Shown here: positions 8,086 to 58,256 of the stretch, piece after piece
Layout: each line of letters begins with the position of its first letter
Position numbering within the stretch: position 1 is the first letter of the stretch
NCBI GenBank assembly: GCA_009773185.1
Contig: WPIF01000002.1
Coordinates: 62,001-126,000 of the forward strand
Direction of reading: 5' to 3'
DNA: 64,000 nt
From: Nitrospirota bacterium
GTDB taxonomy: Bacteria; Nitrospirota; Thermodesulfovibrionia; Thermodesulfovibrionales; UBA1546
Translations under genes and position numbers: made by a program
Notes under the pieces: generated by a model
The model's input: only the letters and a program-made list of their open reading frames with translations
Told to the model about the DNA's origin: nothing
Database searches by the model: none

Positions 8086-8134
8086 ATAAGTAGGGCGGGT
8101 GGCAGCGACATTTTCTGCCACCCGCCCTACTTAT
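8086..8134. terminator. 20-bp perfect hairpin between convergent genes (candidate bidirectional terminator or repeat)
   Basis: ATAAGTAGGGCGGGTGGCAG-cgacatttt-CTGCCACCCGCCCTACTTAT. Confidence 0.6.
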
Positions 8135-10109
8135 TTCTTTGAATCTGAAGAATTCTATTTCTTGTTATCTTATCTTCTGGATTAAGTCTTAATGCTATCT
8201 GATATTCTTTTATTGCCTTATCCAACAGTCCTCTTATCTCATAAGTGACTCCAAGATTATAATGTGCATCTGCGTAATCCGGGTAAAGTTTTAATGCAAT
8301 CTGATAATGTTCTATGCCCTTATCTGTCAAGCTTTTATTATAGTAGGCTGCACCAAGGTTATTATATGCCTCTGCGTAATTCGGGTTTATTCTCAATGCA
8401 ATCTGATAATGTTCTATGGCCATATCTGTCAAGCCTTTATTATAGTAGGCTGCACCAAGGTTATTATATGCCTCTACATAATCCGGGTTTATTCTCAAGG
8501 CAATCTGATAATGTTCTATGGCCTTGTCTGTCAAGCCTTTATCTTTGTAGGCTATACCAAGGTTATTATGCCCTCTTGCCTTCTGAGGACTCTTTCTCAC
8601 CACATCCTCCCACAAACTCATCTCATCCTGCCAGACGATGTTTCTCTGATAAGCAGCAATTGAAAGAACAATAACAGCAGTAGCAAGTAGTGAGCAGCAA
8701 GCAATAAGGGAACGTCTTGGATTTTGAATCATAGCCTGAAGGATATAAAACGTGGCTGATACAAAAACAATAATAATGCCTATAATAGGCAGATACAACC
8801 TGTGTTCAAAGATTACGTCTCGGATAGGAATAATTGATGATTCAACAGATAAAGTGATAAAGAACCAGAAAATACCGAAAGAAATAAGGCGAAAGTCAGG
8901 GAATCCCCCCATCCCCCCTTTGTCAAAGGGGGGTGAGGGGGGATTTGTAAAGGAAGTCGCCGTGAGGTTATGCCTTGAACGGTAAAAAAGATAAACACCA
9001 AGCCCACAGATAGATAAAAGAAACAGAAATGACAGAAATACCTGCGGATTTGAAAATGAATGATATATCGGATAGTCATAATCGAGGTTCTGGTTTATCG
9101 GTAAAAACAAGAGTCTTATATAGGTAACAATCACCCTGAATTGTGTAAGCAGATAACCCCATCTTGAAATCGCTTCTGTCTCCTGTGCTGCCTCTCTTAT
9201 CTCACCGATTGCATCTCCGATTGGCTTATCTATTCCTATCAGGCTTAAAGGGATAACAAGTAAGGTAAGGAGAAAAGGGATGAGGTAGAGAAGTCTTTTG
9301 TAACCGCCTTCCATCCTGTTATTCCTGCGGAAGCAGGAATCCATCTCATTCTTATCCTGGATTCCCGTTTTCACGGGAATGACAAATTGGTTGTTGCCAA
9401 AGAACATAAATTCATAAAGGGCAACAATAATCGGCAGTGTAAATGCAATCTCCTTTGTCTTCATGGCAAGGACAGCGGAGATGAGAGAGACAGCGTATAG
9501 CGTATAGCGTGCAGCGGGTAGTTTTTGCTGACTACTGATAGCTGATTGCCCGATACGGGTCTCCGCTGAGGGTCGCTCCGACTGATTTCTGAATTTTATA
9601 TACATGACAAGCGAAAGCAGATAAAACATGGCTGCAAGGGAAGTGAATCTCTGGACGATGTATGTTACTGCCTGTGTCTGGATGGGATGGGCTACAAAGA
9701 GCAGGGCAGAAAAAAGGGCAACCAAAGAAGTGTCAGAGTGTCCAAGTATCATAGTGTCAGAGACTTCGGAACTTTGATACTCTGATACTATGACCCTTTG
9801 ATACTTTACTACTCGGAGCGTCAGCACCACCAGCCAATAAATTAGGATTGCATTGAAGATATGGATAACAAGGTTAGCAATGTGATAACCAATGGTATTC
9901 AGTCCTCCGAAATAATAATTCAGAGCAAATGTTAAAAAGCCGACCCACCTTGAACCTGACGGCGGCCAGGAGTTACTTAAATCCCTTAATTTATAGTTTT
10001 CAACGATATTATTTCTGTCATCGAAATGAAATGGCACATTGAAGGTGTTGGAGTAAACAAGAAAGCCAACTACTATAATTAACAGGATATGAAAAATGCG
10101 TTTACTCAT
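8127..10109 (-). CDS. TMTC/PMT-like multi-pass membrane glycosyltransferase with C-terminal TPR repeats
   Basis: NTFNVPFHFDDRNNIVEN, LFVAHPIQTQAVTYIVQR, EHRLYLP motifs followed by four TPR units. Confidence 0.8.
   Translation of the reverse strand: MSKRIFHILLIIVVGFLVYSNTFNVPFHFDDRNNIVENYKLRDLSNSWPPSGSRWVGFLTFALNYYFGGLNTIGYHIANLVIHIFNAILIYWLVVLTLRVVKYQRVIVSEYQSSEVSDTMILGHSDTSLVALFSALLFVAHPIQTQAVTYIVQRFTSLAAMFYLLSLVMYIKFRNQSERPSAETRIGQSAISSQQKLPAARYTLYAVSLISAVLAMKTKEIAFTLPIIVALYEFMFFGNNQFVIPVKTGIQDKNEMDSCFRRNNRMEGGYKRLLYLIPFLLTLLVIPLSLIGIDKPIGDAIGEIREAAQETEAISRWGYLLTQFRVIVTYIRLLFLPINQNLDYDYPIYHSFSNPQVFLSFLFLLSICGLGVYLFYRSRHNLTATSFTNPPSPPFDKGGMGGFPDFRLISFGIFWFFITLSVESSIIPIRDVIFEHRLYLPIIGIIIVFVSATFYILQAMIQNPRRSLIACCSLLATAVIVLSIAAYQRNIVWQDEMSLWEDVVRKSPQKARGHNNLGIAYKDKGLTDKAIEHYQIALRINPDYVEAYNNLGAAYYNKGLTDMAIEHYQIALRINPNYAEAYNNLGAAYYNKSLTDKGIEHYQIALKLYPDYADAHYNLGVTYEIRGLLDKAIKEYQIALRLNPEDKITRNRILQIQRNK
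8264..8570 (-). repeat. Tandem ~102 bp DNA repeats encoding TPR units
   Basis: Near-identical blocks 'caatctgataatgttctatggcc..atctgtcaagcctttattatagtaggctgcaccaaggttattatatgcctc'. Confidence 0.9.
9312..9384. repeat. Palindromic repeat (GTCATTCCCG...CGGGAATCCAGG class) inside the TMTC-like CDS
   Basis: cctgttattcctgcggaagcaggaatccatctcattcttatcctggattcccgttttcacgggaatgacaa; same class as 46175-46259. Confidence 0.8.
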
Positions 10110-13988: not shown

Positions 13989-14552
13989 GTGATTTCAACG
14001 AGTGATTTCAGGAAAGGCCTAAAGGTTGAGTTTAAGGGAGAGCCTTGCGAGATAGTGGACTTTCAGCATGTCAAGATGGGCAGGGGCGGAGCTATTGTCA
14101 GGACAAAAATGAGGAATATCAAGACAGGGGCTGTCCTTGAGGAGACGTTCAGGTCAGGGGAAAAATTAGAGACCCCCGGGCTTGAAGATAAGACTATGCA
14201 GTATCTGTATGCTCAGGATGAGGTCTATTATTTTATGGATTCAGAGACGTATGAGCAGGTCCCGCTCACACACGACCATATTGGCGAGGCAAAGAAATTC
14301 CTTAAAGAAAATATGATGGTCAAAATACTGTATCATAAAGGCATGCCTATCAGCCTGGAGATCCCAACATTTGCGGAACTCAGGATTGTAAAGACAGACC
14401 CTGCAGGTTTCAAGGGAGATACGGCTTCAGGCGGCGGAAAGCCTGCAACTCTGGAAACAGGGGCAGTAGTCAGGGTCCCCTTTCATTTAAACGAGGGTGA
14501 TGTAATAAAGGTTGACACAAGGACATCAGAATATATAGAGAGAGTTAAGTAG
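13989..14552 (+). CDS. efp: Elongation factor P
   Basis: FRKGLKVEFKGEPCEIVDFQHVKMGRGGAIVRTKMRN; C-terminal GDVIKVDTRTSEYIERVK. Confidence 0.96.
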   Translation: MISTSDFRKGLKVEFKGEPCEIVDFQHVKMGRGGAIVRTKMRNIKTGAVLEETFRSGEKLETPGLEDKTMQYLYAQDEVYYFMDSETYEQVPLTHDHIGEAKKFLKENMMVKILYHKGMPISLEIPTFAELRIVKTDPAGFKGDTASGGGKPATLETGAVVRVPFHLNEGDVIKVDTRTSEYIERVK

Positions 14553-14597
14553 TATCAAAGGGTCAAAAGCTCTGATACTTTGATACTCTGACACTTA
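14549..14597. repeat. Short-word satellite related to the one at 9727-9815
   Basis: agtatcaaagggtcaaaagctctgatactttgatactctgacactt; shares tatcaaagggtca and tgatac(t)ctgata words. Confidence 0.6.
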
Positions 14598-15058: not shown

Positions 15059-15215
15059 CAATAGCGGCATATAGCATTTTCGCTCATTCTCGGCCTGCGG
15101 CTTCCGAGGTATTTTGCCTCACAACCCCCTTAATCCCCCTTAACAAAATGGGACTCAGGGGGTTGTCAGACTATCGGCAAAATAAAACCGCTCAAATACC
15201 ATATGCCGCTATTGG
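15059..15215 (+). repeat. Dispersed three-stem palindromic element, copy C
   Basis: Arms acaatagcggcatatagcattt / aaataccatatgccgctattgg; TTTCGCTCATTCTCGG..CCGAGGTATTTTGCCTC...GACTATCGGCAAAATAAAACCGCTCAA. Confidence 0.88.
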
Positions 15216-20349: not shown

Positions 20350-21207
20350 ATGACCGCCCTCGATAAGATAAAAGAAATAACAGCCCTTCTCCAAAGATGC
20401 GGCATTGAAGATGCGCATATAGAATCTGAAATTATTTTAACCCACAGCCTTGGCATGGACAAGACTGCGCTATACAGAGATGACCCAATCCTTTCAGAAA
20501 AAGATGTAAAAGAGATAGATAAGATTGTTGAAAGAAGGGCGAAGAGGGAACCGCTGCAGTATATTCTCGGATATGTGGAGTTTTACGGGTTAAAAATAAA
20601 GGTTGGAGAAGGTGTCCTCATACCAAGACCTGAGACGGAATTGATGGTGGAAGAAATTATTAAACTCTTCACTGTTCACCGTTCACCGTTCACTGTTTTA
20701 GACCTCTGCACCGGAAGCGGGTGCCTTGCACTGGCGCTCGCAAAGAATTTTCCTGATGCAAAGGTGTACGGGACTGATATTTCAGCAACAGCTATCAGAT
20801 ACGCTAAAGAAAATGCAGAGCTTAATAGCATAAGCAATGCGGTTTTCCTGAAGGGCTCGCTATATGAGCCGCTAAAGCAATTTATATCAGGGATGCCTCT
20901 TAAGTTTGACGTTATTGTTTCTAACCCTCCTTATATAAGAAGCAATGACATTGTAACTCTTCAGCCTGAGATTAAAAACTGGGAGCCCAGAAATGCGCTT
21001 GACGGAGGAGATGACGGCCTCAGATATTACAGGGAGATACTTGCAGAAGCTCCGAAATATCTGGCCATGGACGGGTTTGTCTTTCTTGAAGCCGGTGAAG
21101 GGCAGGCAGTGGATGTTATTAAGATTGCTGAAAATGCCGGTTTCAGAAAAAATTCCGCTATAAAAGATTACGCAGGCGTAAAAAGGATAATTGTCATAAT
21201 GTCCTAA
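20350..21207 (+). CDS. prmC: Peptide chain release factor N5-glutamine methyltransferase
   Basis: RREPLQYILGYVEFYGLKIKVGEGVLIPRPETELMVE; DLCTGSGCLALALA; VSNPPYIRS. Confidence 0.95.
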   Translation: MTALDKIKEITALLQRCGIEDAHIESEIILTHSLGMDKTALYRDDPILSEKDVKEIDKIVERRAKREPLQYILGYVEFYGLKIKVGEGVLIPRPETELMVEEIIKLFTVHRSPFTVLDLCTGSGCLALALAKNFPDAKVYGTDISATAIRYAKENAELNSISNAVFLKGSLYEPLKQFISGMPLKFDVIVSNPPYIRSNDIVTLQPEIKNWEPRNALDGGDDGLRYYREILAEAPKYLAMDGFVFLEAGEGQAVDVIKIAENAGFRKNSAIKDYAGVKRIIVIMS

Positions 21208-23783: not shown

Positions 23784-23803
23784 TATGACATATAGAATAT
23801 TGA

Positions 23804-23934
23804 AGGCAGGGGATATTATTTGAGCGGTTTTTTTGCCTGCAATTCATACAGCAATTATCAAAATATAGAAGCGGGCAAAACCTCGGAGGTCGCCAAAGGC
23901 GACCGAGAATGAGCGAAGATATTATCCCCTGTCT
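23804..23934 (-). repeat. Dispersed three-stem palindromic element, copy E
   Basis: Arms ggcaggggatattatt / gatattatcccctgtc; TGAGCGGTTTTTTTGCC...GGCAAAACCTCGGAGGTCGCCaaaGGCGACCGAGAATGAGCGAA. Confidence 0.88.
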
Positions 23935-24051
23935 ATAACTTCTACTTTATAACTTATACCTGAAAAATCTATAATTCCGCTTAAATTAACGGCTTATTAC
24001 AGGGTTCCGGCAATTATAAGAAAAATTAATATTACAATTTTAATTTTTTTC

Positions 24052-42995: not shown

Positions 42996-43577
42996 TCAGG
43001 GCTTGTTGCTATCTTCTTTTTTGAGTGGTCTTACAGGCGTATTGTCCGGTTTTGTATATACTATCCCGGCCCTTATCTCCGAAGACAGGTTTTTCAGGGC
43101 AGTTTCGATTGCCGGTTCTTTTGAGGCCACTAATGCCTGCAGGCTGGTCTCATTGTAGAACGATACAATAAAAACTCCGCTGTTTCTGAGTTCTGTAACC
43201 TTTCCTTCAGGCGAGGTGAGGAAGAACTCTCCCTTTATAATCACCTCATACTCAACTGCCAGTCCTTCTTTTTCCGTTAAGGGCTTAAGTTCAAATTTTG
43301 TTATGACGCCGGTAATTACATACCCGGAATTTCTGGAAATCATAATGCCGTTTTTAATCAGTTCATCTGCAAGGGCCTTCTGAAGTTTGTCCTCAAGTTT
43401 CGGCTCAAAGGTCCTGTTTTCTATCCTGCCTATCCTGACAGAATCAAACGGCAGGGTCTCTCGTCCCTGAAATTTATAACCGCAGCCGGTTAAAAAGCAG
43501 AGAGCAGAGAGCAGAGAGCAGAGAGCAAAAAGCAGCATGGGCCTTTCAATTTTTAACTTTAAACTTTTAACTTTCAT
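42996..43577 (-). CDS. LptE-like LPS assembly lipoprotein
   Basis: Lipobox LTGCGYKFQGRETLPFDSVRIGRIENRTFEPKLEDKLQKALADELIKNGIM. Confidence 0.8.
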   Translation of the reverse strand: MKVKSLKLKIERPMLLFALCSLLSALCFLTGCGYKFQGRETLPFDSVRIGRIENRTFEPKLEDKLQKALADELIKNGIMISRNSGYVITGVITKFELKPLTEKEGLAVEYEVIIKGEFFLTSPEGKVTELRNSGVFIVSFYNETSLQALVASKEPAIETALKNLSSEIRAGIVYTKPDNTPVRPLKKEDSNKP

Positions 43578-46220
43578 CTAATCTCCAATGACTATATTAA
43601 CAAGTTTGCCTTTAACAACAAAGACTTTTTTTATTGCCTTATGCCCTGTTGCCTCTTTTATCTTTGGTTCCTCAAGTGCCTTCTGTTTAATATCCTCATC
43701 AGAAAGTCCGGTTGGCATCAAGAGTTTTGCCTTTACCTTCCCGTTAACCTGTATTACAAGCTCAATCTCATCTTCCTTTGTTATATCTTCATCCCATGAA
43801 GGCCATCGCTGTTCAAGGATGCTTGCTTTGTTCCCGATTGTTTCCCATAGTTCTTCTGCAATATGAGGAGAAAATGGCGAAAGAAGCAGCAACAAGGCCT
43901 CTATACTGAATCTGAATACCTTCCAGTCTTCATCTGTCTTTGGTTCAAAGGATGTTATATCATTCACAAGTTCCATCAAGGCTGCAATTGCAGTATTGAA
44001 ATGATATTCCCGCTCTATGTCATTTGTTACGCGCTTAATGGTCTGGTGGGTTTTTCTTAGAAGCAGTGACGAGTGACGAGTGACAAGTGACGAGTTAGGT
44101 TTTAACTTCTGACACCTGTATTTATAAACTATTCCCCAAATCCTGTTTAAAAATCTGTAAGAGCCGTCAACTCCCTGGTCAGACCATTCAAGGTCTCTTT
44201 CCGGCGGCGCAGCAAAGAGTGAAAACAGCCTTGATGTATCAGCTCCGTATCTGTTTATGAGATGGTCAGGGTCGAGCACATTTTTTTTGGATTTTGACAT
44301 CTTCTCAACCCTTCCTCTTTCAACCGGCTTTCCGCATCTTGTGCATTTATCTTCCTTAACTTCTTCGGGGAAGAGCCATCCATGTTCAGGGCATTTAAGC
44401 GTTTCTTTGCATACCATCCCCTGTGTGAGGAGGTTTGTGAAAGGCTCGTCAAAGCCCATTATGCCGATATCTTTTATGACCCGAGTGAAAAATCTTGAAT
44501 AAAGAAGGTGCAGTACCGCATGTTCCACTCCGCCTATATACTGGTCAACAGGCATCCAGTAATCTATGGGTTTAGGGTTTAGGGGTTGGGGGTTAGCATT
44601 TTTTTTGTTACCAATCCCAAATCCCCAGTCCCCAGTCCCATTTTTTAAGCAATACGCGATGAAATACCATGATGAATCAACAAATGTATCCATTGTGTCT
44701 GTCTCGCGCCTGGCTTTGCCTTTGCATTTCGGGCAGGGCACATTCAGAAATTTCTCGGACTCTTTCAATGGCGAGCCTCCTGTACCTGTGAACTTTACGT
44801 CTTCAGGAAGTATTACAGGGAGTTCATTTTCAGGAACAGGCACAGCCCCGCATTTGGCGCAATAGATTATAGGGATAGGAGTGCCCCAGTATCTCTGCCT
44901 CGAAATTCCCCAATCGCGGAGCTTATAGTTTACTACCTTTTTGCCAAGCCCCTTTTTCTCTATGAACTTTGCTATCTCTGCCCTTGCGACATCACTTCTC
45001 AGCCTGCTGTATGAGCTTGAGTTGGCGAGTATGCCATCCTCTTCGAAAGCCTCTGTAAGCTCATGGCTCGTGGCTCGTGGCTCATTGCTTGCTGGAATAA
45101 TTACCTCCCTTATCGGCAAATCATATTTCTTTGCAAATTCAAAATCCCTCTGGTCATGAGCCGGCACTGACATTATCGCTCCTGTGCCGTATTCCATCAG
45201 CACAAAGTTAGCTATATATATAGGAATCTTTTCGTCATTTGCAGGATTTATCGCATAATGCCCTGTGAAAAGCCCTATCTTTTCATCTTCCTTGCCGTAT
45301 TGCTCTTTGATTTTATTAAGCGCTTTTTTGTCAGAAACAAGTTTCTCGGCAAGTTCATGCGCAGGAGCAATGCAGACAAATGTTGCGCCGAATAAGGTGT
45401 CAGCCCTTGTCGTGAATATTCTTATTTTGTCATTTGTGCCGTCTACCCTGAAGTCTGCTTCAAGCCCCTCGCTTTTACCAATCCAGTGCTTCTGCATGAG
45501 AACTACTTTTTCAGGCCATCCTTTAAGCCCATCGCACGCTCTGAGCAGGTCTTCTGCATAATTGGTTATCCTGAAGAACCATTGCTCAAGCTGTTTCTGG
45601 ATGACTGCTGTATCGCAGCGCCAGCATGCTCCGTCAATTACCTGCTCGTTGGCAAGGACTGTTGCGCATGAAGGGCACCAGTTTACAAATGATGATTTCC
45701 TGTATGCAAGCCCTTTTTCATACATCTTTAGAAAGAACCACTGGTTCCACTTGTAATATTCAGGGCTGCATGTTGTGACTTCCCTGTCCCAGTCATAGCT
45801 TAGGCCCATCCGGTTGAGCTGTTTCTTCATGTAGGCGATATTTTCATAAGTCCATTTTGCAGGATGTATGCCCTCTTTGATTGCTGCGTTTTCAGCAGGC
45901 ATCCCGAATGCGTCCCATCCCATTGGGTGAATGACATTAAAGCCCCGCATCCTTTTATACCTTGCTATAACATCGCCGATGGCATAGTTGCGGACATGCC
46001 CCATGTGGATTTTGCCTGAAGGATAGGGGAACATCTCAAGGCAGTAGAATTTTTTCTTTGCAGGGTCAGCCTCTGTCCTGAAAAGGTTTCTTTCAGCCCA
46101 GCGCTTCTGCCACTTTAGTTCAACTGTTTGCGGGTCGTATCTTTCGTCCAAGATGTCTGCTCCTATTTTTGTTCTGTCATTCCCATGTAAATGGGAATCC
46201 AGATTTATTTCTGAGAACAA
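43578..46220 (-). CDS. leuS: Leucyl-tRNA synthetase (true start probably TTG at 46151)
   Basis: [78 protein letters not shown] upstream of TTG at 46151. Confidence 0.95.
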
Positions 46221-46259
46221 TAAAACATATCCTGGATTCCCGCCTTCGCGGGAATGACA
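46175..46259. repeat. Inverted-repeat element TGTCATTCCC...GGGAATGACA, abutting/overlapping the leuS 5' end
   Basis: tgtcattcccatgtaaatgggaatccag...cctggattcccgccttcgcgggaatgaca. Confidence 0.85.
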
Positions 46260-46402
46260 ACCGATAGTCCAAGATTCAGGTATTTATTATATCTGTGCAG
46301 AGAGGGGATTGACAAGGGCAGGGGCGAGCTGCACTATTACTCTTCTGACTATGGCACTATGGACTTTGGAACTTTTGAACTTGCAGTATGCCTGCAAAGG
46401 CG

Positions 46403-51324: not shown

Positions 51325-51400
51325 AGTTTATGATGATAACATAAAGATATATGCTACTGGCAATTTTAAGGACATTCTTAAATTATAGATAGAAAAAATA

Positions 51401-51525
51401 GTAACAGGATAAATCTTTCGCTCATTCTCGGTCGAATCGACCTCCGAGGATTTTGCCTCTTTATATTTTCATTTTATGCTGTAGGACTATCGGCAAAATA
51501 AGCCGCTCAAGACCAATCCTGTTAC
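51401..51525 (+). repeat. Dispersed three-stem palindromic element, copy F
   Basis: Arms gtaacaggataaatc / gaccaatcctgttac; TTTCGCTCATTCTCGGTCGaaTCGACCTCCGAGGATTTTGCC...GACTATCGGCAAAATAAGCCGCTCAAG. Confidence 0.9.
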
Positions 51526-55043: not shown

Positions 55044-55049
55044 GCATAA

Positions 55050-55175
55050 TATGCGGGAGGGAATTGTCTTGAGCGGTTTTTTTGCCTGCCTCTATGCAGA
55101 ATGCATGGACAGGCAAAACCTCGGAGGTCGCCGGAGGCGACTGAGAATGAGCGAAAGATTGTTCCCTCCCGCATA
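55050..55175 (-). repeat. Dispersed three-stem palindromic element, copy G
   Basis: Arms tatgcgggagggaattgtc / gattgttccctcccgcata; TTGAGCGGTTTTTTTGCCTG...CAGGCAAAACCTCGGAGGTCGCCggaGGCGACTGAGAATGAGCGAAA. Confidence 0.92.
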
Positions 55176-55199
55176 CTATAGAGTTATTAGATTATAAAG

Positions 55200-56853: not shown

Positions 56854-57021
56854 ACAAAGGAGGGGACAATCTTTTCACTCATTCTCGGTCGCTGAAGCGA
56901 CCTCCGAGGTATTTTGCCTCACCCCCCTTCGTTCCCCCCTTGATAAGGGGGGAATTTAAGAGGGGTGGTTTTTGAACTATCGGCAAAATAAAACCGCTCA
57001 AAGACAGTTCCCTCCTTTGTT
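56854..57021 (+). repeat. Dispersed three-stem palindromic element, copy I
   Basis: Arms acaaaggaggggacaatc / gacagttccctcctttgt; CACTCATTCTCGGTCGCtgaaGCGACCTCCGAGGTATTTTGCCTC...GAACTATCGGCAAAATAAAACCGCTCAAA. Confidence 0.92.
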
Positions 57022-58098: not shown

Positions 58099-58256
58099 GG
58101 GCGAAGACCTAGTATTTTTTCGCCCCGGCGAATCCGCAGAGGCGGACACTCATTCTCGGGCTAAAGCCCTCCGAGGAATTTTGCTCTTTATTTTTTTATA
58201 TTTTAAACTTTGTGAATATCGCAAAATAAAACCGCTCAAATACTATGTCTTCGCCA
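58099..58256 (+). repeat. Dispersed three-stem palindromic element, copy J
   Basis: Arms ggcgaagacctagtattt / aaatactatgtcttcgcc; CACTCATTCTCGGGCTaaAGCCCTCCGAGGAATTTTGC...GCAAAATAAAACCGCTCAAA. Confidence 0.9.

Follow-up and report, generated by a model that had tools for sequence, protein, structure and literature searches.

Dispersed short repeats in frame in the loops of a TMTC-like membrane protein and of other proteins in a Nitrospirota lineage

The locus described here raises the question of how four unrelated short repeats can lie in frame inside one gene for a membrane protein. The gene resides in a 64-kb stretch of DNA (the window) of the genome of a groundwater Nitrospirota bacterium, with an assembly size of 2.79 Mb. 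The publicly recorded relatives of this genome are for the most part Nitrospirae MAGs from groundwater. The original prediction placed four repeat segments in frame within the 660-aa coding sequence, between transmembrane (TM) segments, and their coordinates and frame are confirmed on the minus strand (Table 1). It had also proposed checking whether the segments correspond to gaps in homologues; at precisely these places the homologues have either gaps or other fillings, and a gap-free alignment was not found. The explanation favored here is that dispersed short repeats spread widely and that selection has left the in-frame, stop-free copies in tolerant loops, which is very probably the case.

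The TMTC-like gene and its four repeat classes

The 660-aa protein is composed of a GT-C-type transmembrane domain (~aa 1-493) followed by TPR repeats. The C-terminal TPR repeats are matched by Pfam. The region of aa 1-493 has no Pfam match, to TMTC or another GT-C family, at E-values up to 0.1, and as the membrane part is without a Pfam match, the name is restricted to "TMTC-like". With the AlphaFold model of the protein (pLDDT 84.8) as the query, the top 16 Foldseek matches are chains of OST, PIG-U, ArnT, AglB and PMT, at a probability of 0.97-1.00 and an E-value of only ~0.016 to 0.15. TMTC proteins belong to the GT-C/PMT clan and likewise have a GT-C membrane domain and then TPRs, and full-length bacterial homologues are on record (PMC7801869). 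The earlier description of the protein as a TMTC-like glycosyltransferase has held for the fold and the TPRs, though not through any Pfam match in the membrane part. Based on the predicted fold and the literature, the label appears fair, and the protein is a putative glycosyltransferase. Variation is also found in the cytoplasmic loops of human TMTCs, but repeat inserts are not reported there (PMC7801869). The TMTC-like family is strongly multiplied; its matched stretches number 34 in the 2.79-Mb genome and are about as numerous in relatives. The genes beside the fetched homologues give only weak or single matches, so individual members of the family cannot be assigned as orthologues with certainty.

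Table 1. Positions of the TMTC-like gene and of repeat elements in the window.
Feature	Position	Strand	Description
TMTC-like gene	8127..10109	minus	660-aa ORF without internal stops
Class A palindrome AATCCCCCCTCACCCCCCTTTGACAAAGGGGGGATGGGGGGATTC	~8901..8945	minus	In frame as NPPSPPFDKGGMGGF, TM8-TM9 loop
Class B paired palindromes	~9315..9386	minus	In frame as FVIPVKTGIQDKNEMDSCFRRNN, TM6-TM7 loop
Class C 7-mer arrays	~9490..9580	minus	In frame as SAETRIGQSAISSQQKLPAARYTLYAV, TM4-TM5 loop
Class D 8-mer array	~9727..9815	minus	In frame as KYQRVIVSEYQSSEVSDTMILGHSDTS, TM2-TM3 loop
Second class B element	46180..46260		Upstream end of LeuRS gene
Class D intergenic copy	14543..14595	plus	No ORF of at least 90 aa spans the copy
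PrmC/HemK 7-mer array	20667..20697	plus	In frame (KLFTVHRSPFTV), ORF 20350-21207
LptE-like lipoprotein 7-mer array	43493..43529	minus	Part of signal peptide, ORF 42996-43577
LeuRS 7-mer array	44064..44091	minus	In frame, ORF 43578-46220
LeuRS second 7-mer array	45058..45083	minus	In frame (NEPRATSHE)
GCAAAATAAAACCGCTCAAATAC ... CCGAGAATGAGCGAAA family copies	274-390, 15063-15202, 23803-23944, 51390-51501, 55046-55179, 56861-57018, 58208-58246		In the window

The four classes, each in a loop of its own, are a CCCCCCTTTGTCAAAGGGGGG palindrome (class A), a GTCATTCCCG palindrome pair (class B), 7-mer arrays (class C) and an 8-mer array (class D). When tested for palindromes, A and B proved palindromic, D is a tandem array whose halves are inverted relative to each other, and C is not palindromic. 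A search of the gene against Rfam gave no match at the gathering score.

Class A is found as three near-identical copies of ~45 bp in three unrelated genes, in the same reading frame, all encoding NPPSPPFDKGG. The other two hosts are a GT9 gene and a UvrD/AddA-like gene, and all three copies seen lie within genes. The class A segment is a gap in homologues, with a pLDDT of 42-54. The palindromes of class B, at 9321-9340 and 9361-9380, are GTCATTCCCG...CGGGAATCC and GGATTCC...GGAATAAC. There are 10 strict copies of this class in the 2.79-Mb genome, compared with 0 for the controls, and the segment corresponds to a gap of ~28 aa in most homologues.

Class C is made up of an AGCGTAT array and a second, AGCTATC-like 7-mer type (CAGCTATCAGTAGTCAGC); searching the 2.79-Mb genome for its 7-mer pattern gives 61 matches, compared with one for the reversed control. 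The YTLYAV end of the segment coincides in part with the conserved start of TM5 (Y205 is conserved), and only the part before YTLYAV is therefore clearly insert-like. Class D consists of AGTATCAN 8-mer units followed by their reverse complement. It is weak in total, with 48 matches against 35 for the control at two mismatches, but the matches at 0-1 mismatch come from a small number of true arrays. The class also occurs in MoeA-like, TrpE-like and MobB-like genes, in loop 4 of one TMTC-like homologue (L053) and in intergenic DNA. The intergenic 8-mer copies, the one listed in Table 1 and two others, lie at the ends of genes, with two directly preceding apparent tRNA genes, and might act as terminators. 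A separate dispersed repeat family (GCAAAATAAAACCGCTCAAATAC ... CCGAGAATGAGCGAAA), up to ~117 nt long, has about seven copies in the 64 kb.

Arrays in other genes and their turnover in orthologues

The original prediction treated the matter as one of a single gene. The presence of several unrelated classes in one gene stands, but this framing is too narrow, as many genes of the genome and of its relatives are alike in this respect. In a survey of ~0.45 Mb (a 400-kb sample and the window, with simple open frames as the gene calls), there were 16 real period-7 arrays of at least 24 nt, with none in shuffled sequence. One further apparent array proved to be a stretch of masked N and is not included in the count. 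All but one of the 16 lie inside called genes. Since the coding fraction of the surveyed DNA is 0.89, this means that the arrays are not depleted from genes.

The hosts of 7-mer arrays include LeuRS (with two arrays), PrmC/HemK, ValRS, UbiD, the signal peptide of an LptE-like lipoprotein, a CobB/CbiA-like amidotransferase, a UvrA-like protein and an AddA/UvrD-like helicase. The helicase gene, covered by two recorded loci that belong to one gene, has a class A copy in addition to its 7-mer array. Signal peptides or N-terminal leaders of exported proteins consist in part of 7-mer arrays in the LptE-like protein, a PilY1-like protein, a secretin and a lipoprotein. UbiD has an 18-aa 7-mer insert relative to a solved bacterial UbiD. 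HisC at first appeared ungapped against solved structures; its relatives show that the 7-mer segment is lineage-specific, being present, absent or accompanied by a further insert. In the HisC of one relative (G002), a 19-aa insert lies within the 7-mer segment.

LeuRS and HemK, which were picked because their copies in the window bear arrays, have different repeats at the same place in related species, at three sites and one site, respectively. At one LeuRS site, the relatives have NPPLPPFAKGGRGGI, QSAISQQ or KSEVRSQKSGQ, and other repeats, e.g., NPPLPPFAKGGRGGI or LPPHPPLGKGGTKGG, occupy the array sites of LeuRS and PrmC/HemK. With LeuRS and HemK excluded and insertions merged, recognizable repeats account for 2 of 20 orthologue insertions, compared with 1 of 160 controls; the repeat effect is thus strong at particular loops and not everywhere. 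An earlier share of 32/89 was discarded, as it was inflated by double counting and by centering on LeuRS and HemK.

Such reuse of sites could mean that new repeats preferentially enter at or beside old ones, by recombination or nested insertion, as the differing repeats at the LeuRS and HemK sites and the insert within the HisC segment would suggest. However, the tolerance of the site accounts for reuse equally well, and preferential entry is considered unlikely.

Loops and core across the TMTC-like family

In the AlphaFold model, the repeat loops are TM2-3, TM4-5, TM6-7 and TM8-9, all of which run from an even to an odd segment and lie on the same side of the membrane; given the usual GT-C topology, this would be the cytoplasmic side. 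Among up to 111 homologues, four transmembrane spans and one span after TM11 each have a single length (sd 0.0), whereas the four loops each occur in 18-32 different lengths, with ranges of 19-64, 6-46 (the class C loop), 10-46 and 8-47 aa. In relatives, the same loops are short or occupied by other repeat classes. Ten kinds of repeat-type peptide were counted in the loops of homologues and none in the core. The pLDDT of the model drops at the four segments, with block means of 42-75, mostly below 66, compared with mostly above 85 in the rest of the membrane domain.

The core has a dN/dS of 0.15-0.21 against six relatives and is under purifying selection. The loops have values of 0.42-0.82 where defined, although their alignments are uncertain. 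The repeats might instead be retained for a role in the protein or the mRNA, e.g., translation pausing between transmembrane segments or tuning of the gene. In favor of such a role, the same loops are reused repeatedly, and some signal peptides are built in part of 7-mer arrays. Nonetheless, any class or none suffices at a given loop, and the dN/dS of the loops, uncertain as their alignments are, is much nearer to neutral than that of the core. Retention for such a role is accordingly judged improbable.

The DNA of the loops was also matched against 488 kb at a threshold of at least 36 bits. Matches outside the family were obtained for 30 of 232 loops, 4 of 232 reversed loops and none of 659 transmembrane and core spans. 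That the loop peptides represent ordinary disordered loops subject to drift, resembling repeats by chance through biased composition, agrees with their variability and weak constraint, but is largely refuted by the reversed loops, the transmembrane spans and the near-identity of class A over ~45 bp in three unrelated genes, and is very improbable indeed.

A proposed route for the inserts and its relation to known systems

The preferred explanation, in which widely spread repeats are filtered by selection, can be set out as a series of steps. Several unrelated short-repeat families (palindromes, tandem 7-mers and 8-mers) would spread across genomes within this Nitrospirota lineage, with copies entering genes as well as intergenic DNA. 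Copies that shift the frame, carry a stop or fall in the folded core would be lost, and open-frame copies in surface or cytoplasmic loops would persist as neutral or nearly neutral peptide inserts. Loops across the membrane from the presumed active site, as well as surface loops of soluble enzymes, may tolerate 10-30 extra residues. A resident copy could subsequently grow, give way to another copy or acquire one as a neighbor, and loops would thereby empty and refill. The TMTC-like gene, as a member of a many-copy membrane family with four tolerant loops, would in this manner have collected four classes.

The filter is taken to be passive, since no loop has a preferred repeat. Neutrality, the order of events and the mode of copy movement are presumed steps of this scheme; movement may involve slippage for the tandem arrays and MITE/REP-like transposition for the palindromes. 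A link to a REPtron was rejected, as three Y1_Tnp genes are present with no A-D repeats within the 2-3.3 kb examined around each, and no mobilizing enzyme was identified. There are probably fewer insertion events than copies, because paralogues may share inserts by descent.

In-frame palindromic repeats in proteins are already known from Rickettsia and from some REP-rich genomes. The palindromic elements of Rickettsia (RPE), like the repeats here, are found in intergenic DNA as well as in frame within genes for conserved proteins, and a host guanylate kinase, when tested, stayed active (PMC2229807). The likeness to these elements drawn in the original prediction survives as a mode of action; the sequences themselves differ, tandem arrays make up half of the classes here, and a single gene contains four classes. 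As with RPE and REPs, the repeats are multicopy and occur both inside genes and in intergenic DNA (class A in genes only), and the copies are in-frame insertions relative to homologues without the repeat.

REPs of the GTAG and CGTC types are in frame in many genes, sometimes with two insertions per gene; their hosts include uvrA and the UvrD/REP helicase, and recB has different REPs at about the same site (PMC3733652). In-frame hosts, multiple insertions per gene and different repeats at one site are thus shared with the present case, and DNA-repair genes, frequent REP hosts, are represented here by the AddA/UvrD-like helicase. In contrast, these REPs are mostly intergenic and form two palindrome superfamilies (PMC3733652), whereas palindromes occur here together with 7-mer and 8-mer arrays, and repeats turn over at fixed loops, both of a many-copy family and of LeuRS and HemK. 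The TAACTGA heptamer repeats of Beggiatoaceae and cyanobacteria are also 7-nt tandem units of sporadic spread, but are mostly located just upstream of start codons (PMC4679880); here, 15 of the 16 sampled arrays lie in called genes, though 7 is not a multiple of 3.

A literature search in a limited paper collection found no report of in-frame loop repeats in Nitrospirota. The novelty lies in how many unrelated classes there are, with several per gene, in the tandem 7-mers and 8-mers as coding inserts, and in the turnover at fixed loops across the lineage.

Judging from the sequences, "junk" repeats may add new peptide segments to working proteins. A broader and more tentative proposal, possible though still doubtful, is that certain tolerant loops of membrane and housekeeping proteins, fixed in position, serve as permanent landing sites at which unrelated repeats replace each other. 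Repeat turnover, and not just point mutation, would then rank as a leading origin of new loop sequence, with aminoacyl-tRNA synthetases among the proteins affected. In closely related species, the same loops of essential orthologues contain many unrelated classes, 7-mer arrays among them. This natural series of presence and absence allows both the movement of repeats and the tolerance of loops to new peptides to be measured. It also allows it to be asked whether repeat peptides ever become useful, e.g., as signal peptides.
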